32,760 bases of DNA from Candidatus Vecturithrix granuli (GTDB lineage: Bacteria; Moduliflexota; Moduliflexia; Moduliflexales; Moduliflexaceae), in NCBI GenBank assembly GCA_000739535.1, contig DF820473.1, positions 1 to 32,760 on the forward strand, in the 5' to 3' direction. Numbering within the stretch: position 1 is the stretch's first letter; each line of letters starts with the position of its first letter. Positions 10,775 to 11,935 of the stretch are shown here, in pieces. A model generated the notes under the pieces. That model was given only the letters and a program-made list of their open reading frames with translations, did no database searches and was not told where the DNA came from. The translations under genes and the position numbers were made by a program.

Positions 10775-11935
10775 CTAATTCAAATAATCAGAAAGCCGTC
10801 GGTGCTGGGCATGGTGGCGTAATCGTTTTTTAGCTTTGTCTTCAATCTGACGAATGCGTTCACGCGTCAGGCCCAGGCGCATCCCGACTTCTTCAAGCGT
10901 CATAGACGAGGTATAATCAATGCCATAGCGTAGGCGCAATACAATTTCTTCTTTGCCATCCAATAACTTCCCTAAGCGGTTTTTCGCGTTCAGGACGATT
11001 TTGCGCACATCTTGTAGCGGCAATTCCAGTTTGCGGGCAACTGCATCATACGGAAGGGGAGTTTCTTGTTCAATACCATAAATCCATTTCAACACTCGTT
11101 TTTCATCCTGATCCATCTTGGCGTTAAGGGCTTTGATCGCGTTCTGCTCCCGTTCATGCACAACCTCTTCATCAAGGTGCAAATAGGTCGCCGTCTCTTT
11201 GACAGACAGGGGTTTTTCAAAATTTAAGCCATACCGTAAACGCAACACCACCTCTTCGCGTTCGCTGATTTCACTCAGCATTTCTGACAGCAGATCTTCG
11301 ATCGATTGATTGACCAGGGTTTGATCAACCGGGGGAGTGACTTTCGATTCCATTAAATCAATGAAACTGCTCTCATCATTGTCGGAAAGAGGCGCGTCGA
11401 GGGAAAGATAATTGCGCGAGACGCGTAGGATATTATCAACGTCTTTGCGCGAGATATTTAAGTGTTGCGCCAATTCCTCCGGCGTTGGTTCTTTGCCGTT
11501 GTTACGTTGCAGCAACTCGCTATAAGATTGTCCTAATTTATATAATAACCCGGCTTGTTTGAGAGGGAGTCTGACCGCCCCGGCTTGTTCTGCCAGAGCC
11601 TGCATGATTGCCTGTCGAATCCACCAGACCGCATACGAGATAAATTTCACCCCTTTGGACGCATCAAAGCGGGTGGCTGCTTCGAGCAAGCCGATATTGC
11701 CTTCATTGATCAGATCTGGTAACGACATGCCACACCCCTGATACCCCTGAGCGACTTTGACCACAAAGCGAAGATTGCCTTCTACCAGACGTTTGGTCGC
11801 CTCTGAATCACCTTGTTGGATTCGAGTGGCGAGATCAATTTCTTCCTCACGCGTGGTCACCGGAATCTTTCCGATCGCCTTCAGGTAGGCACTCAGCGTA
11901 TCATGAGACACTGCATAGGAACGTTTATATGTCAT
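10775..11935 (-). CDS. Sigma-70 family factor with three tandem sigma-4-like units (386 aa)
   Basis: A primary-like sigma factor without a long region 1.1. Region 1.2 is at about residues 12-45. Region 2 is at 47-120 ([46 protein letters not shown]). Region 3 is at 122-200. Three units of sigma-4 type follow at about 222-272, 276-324 and 327-376. Each begins with a VLR/K...YG(I/L) stretch ([26 protein letters not shown]) and continues with a helix-turn-helix-like stretch. Only the last has the canonical recognition helix [10 protein letters not shown]; the first two are diverged. Normal family members have one sigma-4. The gene lies 76 bp after hspR and is probably in the dnaJ-hspR heat-shock unit, which suggests a stress role. 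Recognition targets are unknown. Confidence 0.88.
   Translation of the reverse strand: [386 protein letters not shown]

Follow-up and report, generated by a model that had tools for sequence, protein, structure and literature searches.

A sigma-70 family factor with three tandem region-4 units in a Moduliflexota family with a decayed RpoD -35 helix

A sigma-70 family factor of Candidatus Vecturithrix granuli (KSB3/Modulibacteria/Moduliflexota) carries three tandem copies of region 4. The three units are predicted to share the sigma-4 fold and are conserved in two genera of one family, and the syntenic gene of a sister family points to a single-unit origin. In the same family, region 4.2 of RpoD has decayed and the promoters are altered. 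Together, the tripled sigma, the decay of RpoD and a weak -10 box suggest that promoter reading has been rewired in this lineage. The reading favored herein, to which we give a probability of about one half, is that a group-2-like sigma encoded behind dnaJ and hspR gained two copies of region 4 and took over the reading of TTGACA, while RpoD lost its -35-reading helix. To our knowledge, one region 4 per protein is the rule in every described sigma group, and the -35 helix of the primary sigma ranks with the best-conserved elements of bacterial transcription.

Four genomes of the phylum, all of one order, were compared. Candidatus Vecturithrix granuli (G000; 8,384,694 bases in 21 contigs) and the candidate division KSB3 bacterium DOLJORAL78_50_49 (G001) represent two genera of one family (f1); the other two genomes (G002 and G003), from a sister family (f2), share one genus and so are not independent. 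The genome paper of Candidatus Vecturithrix granuli UASB270, a member of candidate phylum KSB3, does not mention sigma factors (PMC4312070). The window analyzed is a stretch of 32,760 nucleotides of the G000 assembly, in which the sigma gene and its domains are placed as follows.

10775..11935, (-) strand: sigma-70 family factor with a triplicated region 4; intact open reading frame of 386 aa with an ATG start, Pfam regions 1.2, 2, 3 and 4, and a 74%-identical full-length ortholog in the second genus
11804..11902, (-) strand: region 1.2, residues 12-44 (PF00140, E=2.1e-13)
11585..11788, (-) strand: region 2, residues 50-117 (PF04542, E=2.2e-17)
11324..11512, (-) strand: region 3, residues 142-204 (PF04539, E=1.4e-18)
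11120..11272, (-) strand: region-4 unit 1, residues 222-272 (Sigma70_r4, E=1.8e-7); predicted helices 225-235/245-252/256-273; 68% identity to G001
10967..11119, (-) strand: region-4 unit 2, residues 273-323 (Sigma70_r4, E=1.6e-4, under the cut-off); 1.3 A to sigma-4 of Thermus (T.) aquaticus in the predicted model; 37% identity to G001
10778..10966, (-) strand: region-4 unit 3, residues 324-386, including the C-terminus (Sigma70_r4, E=1.7e-13); 89% identity to G001

Both PF04542 and PF04545 score above their cut-offs, which places regions 2 and 4 of the sigma-70 family in the protein. Region 1.1 is absent, as region 1.2 begins at residue 12 with no domain ahead of it, and regions 1.2, 2, 3 and 4 are present. 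The original prediction had put three successive units behind regions 1.2 to 3, at residues 222-272, 276-324 and 327-376. Three units are borne out by Pfam, by a 51-aa period, by the fold predictions and by the ortholog in G001, while the borders were off by a few residues: with an HMM built on the region 4 of homologs, the copies abut at positions 241-291, 292-342 and 343-393 of the open reading frame (222-272, 273-323 and 324-374 of the protein), a 51-aa step with no gaps. Tested unit by unit against Pfam Sigma70_r4 (cut-off, 24.1 bits), unit 1 scores 31.0 bits, unit 2 21.6 bits, which is below the cut-off, and unit 3 50.3 bits. In shuffle tests of unit against unit, the z-scores were 13.6 for units 1 and 3, 10.9 for units 2 and 3, and 5.3 for units 1 and 2.

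Only the third unit was expected to keep the canonical recognition helix, and the residue alignment agrees. Unit 3 contains TRERIRQIE, as does E. coli RpoD, together with the flap-binding motif VLRLRYG, and has R, E, R and Q at the positions of E. coli R584, E585, R588 and Q589. The other two units have diverged, as had been proposed: unit 1 (E, E, H, E) keeps its 4.1 part and has lost the DNA-contact residues of the recognition helix, and unit 2 (L, Q, R, K), the most diverged of the three, carries a conserved LQDxRxI in that helix.

Structure prediction, by which the original prediction was to stand or fall, favors a sigma-4 fold for units 1 and 2 as well as for unit 3. The AlphaFold2 model repeats one helix triplet three times (225-235/245-252/256-273, 276-285/296-302/307-324 and 327-337/347-354/358-385), with pLDDT values mostly of 75-93. 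VIA-align, which was informative for unit 2 and barely sampled units 1 and 3, superposed unit 2 (residues 273-322) on region 4 of the T. aquaticus sigma (3n97_D), with 50 of 50 residues aligned at 1.3 A (Z 8.3). A Foldseek search with a 182-aa model, in which global scores are blurred by domain order, returned nothing below E 1e-3. At the level of sequence and structural model, the tandem triple layout is confirmed.

By its regions, the protein appears closest to the group 2 sigmas (RpoS, SigB and SigA-like alternatives), which are defined by regions 1.2, 2, 3 and 4 without region 1.1 (PMC4598750), and it would represent a new variant within the sigma-70 family. The sigma factors of that review each have one sigma-4 module, whereas here there are three in tandem. 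No RpoD-, RpoS-, SigB- or RpoH-type NCBIfam cut-off is reached; for example, the RpoD equivalogs score 282 bits against 572 (NF006666) and 259 against 354 (TIGR02393), and the RpoH models 171 against 323 (TIGR02392) and 169 against 241 (NF005143). With RpoD/SigA the protein shares the TRERIRQIE helix of unit 3, but it lacks region 1.1 and the non-conserved region, its region 2.4 is non-canonical (M and Q at E. coli T440 and R441, read in the sequence), and RpoD is encoded separately in the same genome. ECF sigmas with C-terminal extras, such as ECF41, likewise carry added C-terminal modules, which regulate activity according to the literature; however, those modules are not copies of sigma-4, and ECF sigmas have neither region 1.2 nor region 3. 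In the literature searched, mostly outside the subscription journals, no sigma with tandem region 4 turned up, nor any primary sigma whose region 4.2 has decayed. These results, with nothing comparable among 385 genomes, uphold the suspicion that no standard family has this layout.

The search for homologues with the same domain count gave G001 only, whose protein (PDSJ01000015) has the same 386-aa three-unit layout at 74% identity. In both f2 genomes, which are JZ-2-type MAGs, a syntenic ortholog (dnaJ-hspR-sigma) is about 70% identical over regions 1.2-3 and 60% identical between unit 3 and its region 4. Unlike the f1 proteins, it has one region 4, and its genomes have an intact RpoD region 4.2 and a normal -10 box. 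Each of the 79 other relatives that were retrieved from named genomes has one region 4 only, and three tandem matches occurred only in the f1 proteins among 178 region-4-bearing open reading frames in the fetched loci. When two joined consensus units were searched against 385 genomes, near-full query coverage at the top of the list was reached by the two f1 proteins only; some other matches had extended alignments, and the three that were checked all carry a single region 4. The extra units were either gained within the gene in f1 or lost in f2, and gain would be the simpler reading because the 79 other relatives all have one unit. An assembly artefact or contamination was ruled out for the sigma, since an independent MAG shows the same layout and neighbors; the estimated contamination of the genome bin is 10.75%, and synteny with G001 speaks against a foreign locus. 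In the f2 genomes, full-length paralogs of the sigma number about ten or more per genome, 53-58% identical and all with a single region 4, and the f1 genomes contain one such gene each.

RpoD of the f1 genomes is located as follows.

G000 contig C14, about 595170-596960: RpoD, frame of 595 aa, the only full-size RpoD found in G000; its counterpart in G001 lies on contig C23

Between G000 and G001, RpoD is 99% identical over regions 2-3 and invariant in region 4.1 (16/16), and from region 4.2 to the C-terminus identity falls to 53%. The contact residues of region 4.2 are changed (R588 to S or G, and Q589 to D or E); this region reads FVREKISDIETKALFSLRK in G000 and ITRERIGEIEKNALGALRD in G001, and it is canonical in G002 and G003. 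The dN value is 0.46 over the 23-codon helix segment versus 0.01 ahead of it. Judged from these alignments, the change is sharp and limited to the -35 reader, whose region 4.2 is decayed, and it is no less unusual than the triplication. Both changes occur in the same two genomes, G000 and G001, and neither occurs in G002 or G003. An altered beta-flap was ruled out as the cause, since all four genomes share a conserved flap-tip sequence. Compared with RpoB of the sister family, that of both f1 genomes has additional residues behind the flap (RDFYPN...RGKP) as well as around CTWLETPL.

Promoters were surveyed in about 40 kb upstream of predicted genes per genome, with gene starts taken from a simple calling script; tests anchored on TTGACA and on tRNA genes worked, whereas a TATAAT-anchored search for TTGACA at a fixed distance gave no signal, even in the control genome. 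In all four genomes, exact TTGACA ranks first among its 180 anagrams upstream of genes. It exceeds the other anagrams by a ratio of 8.5 and 8.6 in the f1 genomes and of 4.4 and 5.3 in the f2 genomes, and it is present in 29% and 35% of upstream regions in f1 and in 15% and 16% in f2. Among leading tRNA genes of f1, 18 of 23 and 18 of 22 have the exact hexamer. The upstream excess in f1 is partly compositional because the hexamer is more frequent in the coding DNA of f1 as well (1.4-1.6 times the anagram mean, versus a depletion to 0.44-0.48 times in f2); after subtraction of this background, we estimate about 27% of regions versus 14%. Depletion of TTGACA within genes in f2 and not in f1 would fit a loss of harm from stray boxes in f1.

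The -10 box differs more sharply. TANNNT lies 16-18 bp from TTGACA at 44 of 183 sites in f1 (24%) versus 54 of 97 in f2 (56%; p=2e-7), and the low f1 value recurred on a held-out contig of G000, the genome to which this replication was confined (11/53, p=3e-5). Position profiles after TTGACA show an ordinary -10 box at 17 bp in f2 (T23, A24, T28) and almost no fixed-position signal in f1; the gain of a motif model per site is 1.30 log units in f2 (shuffled, 0.53-0.62) and 0.36 in f1 (shuffled, 0.14-0.24). The f1 box is weakened rather than moved, because hexamers with up to two mismatches to TATAAT are enriched at 16-18 bp only (z=7.1), with no enrichment at 19-34 bp; for the same reason, a relaxed spacing between TTGACA and the -10 box was ruled out. 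An AAATTT-like sequence follows TTGACA in 15 of 39 tRNA promoters of the two f1 genomes versus 0 of 28 in f2. This A/T extension, real in tRNA promoters, was dropped as a general feature of f1, as it did not replicate in held-out mRNA promoters (4/53, p=0.19, not significant).

TTGACA is still under selection upstream of f1 genes though its reader in RpoD is degraded; therefore, a protein other than RpoD most likely reads it. From elimination and from co-occurrence in one family (two genomes), we infer that this protein is the triplicated sigma, and within it unit 3 would be the reader because its contact residues match the canonical ones exactly and no other unit is as well conserved. If this sigma does read these promoters, the unchanged spacing of 16-18 bp would mean that unit 3 rather than unit 1 occupies the beta-flap at the -35 element, with TTGACA read at the usual separation from the -10 box. 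Units 1 and 2 would then be an inserted module that follows the sigma 3.2 linker and precedes the working sigma-4, close to the spacer DNA and to the side on which RNA exits, and there they might add weak contacts to DNA or core and perhaps let the -10 box degenerate; the non-canonical region 2.4 could also account for the latter. More tentatively, we propose that -35 recognition has moved to the three-unit sigma while RpoD keeps its flap-binding half, and that tRNA and housekeeping promoters rely on an exact TTGACA with a degenerate -10 box. More DNA, the flap and a decoy had all been suggested for the extra units. Extra -35 boxes can be set aside, as no second TTGACA-like box occurs at any fixed offset in the promoter profile and units 1 and 2 thus read none, and so can a displaced reading head, as TTGACA lies 16-18 bp from the residual -10 box. 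Overall, the original interpretation is partly supported; the decay of RpoD and the altered promoters lay outside its view.

Besides the compositional share of the TTGACA excess, the failed replication of the A/T extension and the contamination estimate of the bin, two further points weigh against the handover of -35 reading to the triplicated sigma. A second candidate sigma with an intact recognition helix (ITRERVRQIKEHA), a 273-aa protein on contig C10 of G000 that is found in G001 too, could be the main alternative reader of TTGACA. Canonical sigma models also all align unit 1, and not unit 3, as region 4 behind region 3. The setting of the sigma gene is as follows.

13688..13693, (-) strand: TTGACA box 97 bp upstream of dnaJ, read in the sequence and among the listed upstream TTGACA sites; candidate -35 element of the sigma-encoding operon
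12443..13591, (-) strand: DnaJ, first gene of the dnaJ-hspR-sigma cluster (PF01556, PF00226, PF00684; syntenic)
12012..12422, (-) strand: HspR-like MerR regulator, directly upstream of the sigma gene and co-directional (PF13411, E=8.9e-18; syntenic in G001, G002 and G003), named from sequence resemblance and its position beside dnaJ
10322..10696, (-) strand: biotinyl/lipoyl domain protein, downstream of the sigma gene (PF00364)

The biotinyl/lipoyl gene was not seen beside the sigma in the relatives in the neighbor comparison and probably lies outside the system. Elsewhere in the window, 16818-26568 is a lipid or polyketide synthase cluster resembling PUFA-type synthases, with a phosphopantetheinyl transferase, a FabD-insert/nitronate-monooxygenase-like protein and a 2288-aa protein with KS, AT, ACP, KR and dehydratase domains.

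Since the gene sits behind dnaJ and an HspR-like regulator in all four genomes, and a stress role is usual for group 2 sigmas (PMC4598750), the protein might be a heat-shock-type stress sigma with a small regulon of its own, TTGACA being read by the C10 sigma or by a DNA-binding partner of RpoD, and the decay of RpoD being a separate event. We consider this unlikely, as the triplication and the decay coincide in the same two genomes and are missing in the other two, and as the region upstream of the operon itself bears the common TTGACA box. Nor was the HAIR operator of HspR (CTTGAGT-N7-ACTCAAG) found in the window with up to three mismatches, although the operator of this lineage may differ.

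Another possibility is that units 1 and 2 are a passive, tolerated duplication in which unit 2 is drifting and unit 3 alone is an ordinary sigma-4, with no new mechanism. Between the two genera, identity is 82-83% in regions 1.2-3, 68% in unit 1, 37% in unit 2 and 89% in unit 3, with dN values of 0.11 for unit 3 and 0.66 for unit 2 and with synonymous sites saturated; the drift of unit 2, the loss of contact residues from unit 1 and the absence of a second -35-like box are all as expected of such a duplication. However, over a divergence that saturates synonymous sites, a mere remnant would be expected to become shortened or disrupted, and the open reading frame, the 51-aa spacing and the predicted folds are maintained in both genera without an indel, the 4.1 motif of unit 1 is nearly invariant, and LQDxRxI of unit 2 is present in both. 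A passive origin therefore seems improbable.

Unit 1 has a complete 4.1 part in the normal linear place after the 3.2 linker, and unit 3 has the reading helix; sigma-4 might accordingly be split, with unit 1 docked on the flap and unit 3, borne upstream on unit 2, reading a displaced or flexible position. The distance of 16-18 bp between TTGACA and the residual -10 box, with nothing at 19-34 bp, makes this very improbable, an argument valid only if the triplicated sigma reads these promoters. Least probable of all is a regulatory role of units 1 and 2, as an autoinhibitory decoy or as a dock for an anti-sigma or activator that keeps unit 3 away from the flap in the absence of a signal, since, for all that two competing flap-binding-like motifs (VLRLRYG) occur in one protein of a heat-shock cluster, no anti-sigma gene was seen among the adjoining genes and unit 1 has no conserved net charge (-4 vs +3), which speaks against a DNA mimic.

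To return to the handover of -35 reading, one bacterial family breaks two rules together, that of the single sigma-4 and that of the conserved RpoD -35 helix, and its promoters are changed to match. If the link between the triplicated sigma and these promoters is true, the family would represent a natural experiment on the handover of promoters from sigma to sigma and on a shift in the balance between the -35 and -10 elements.
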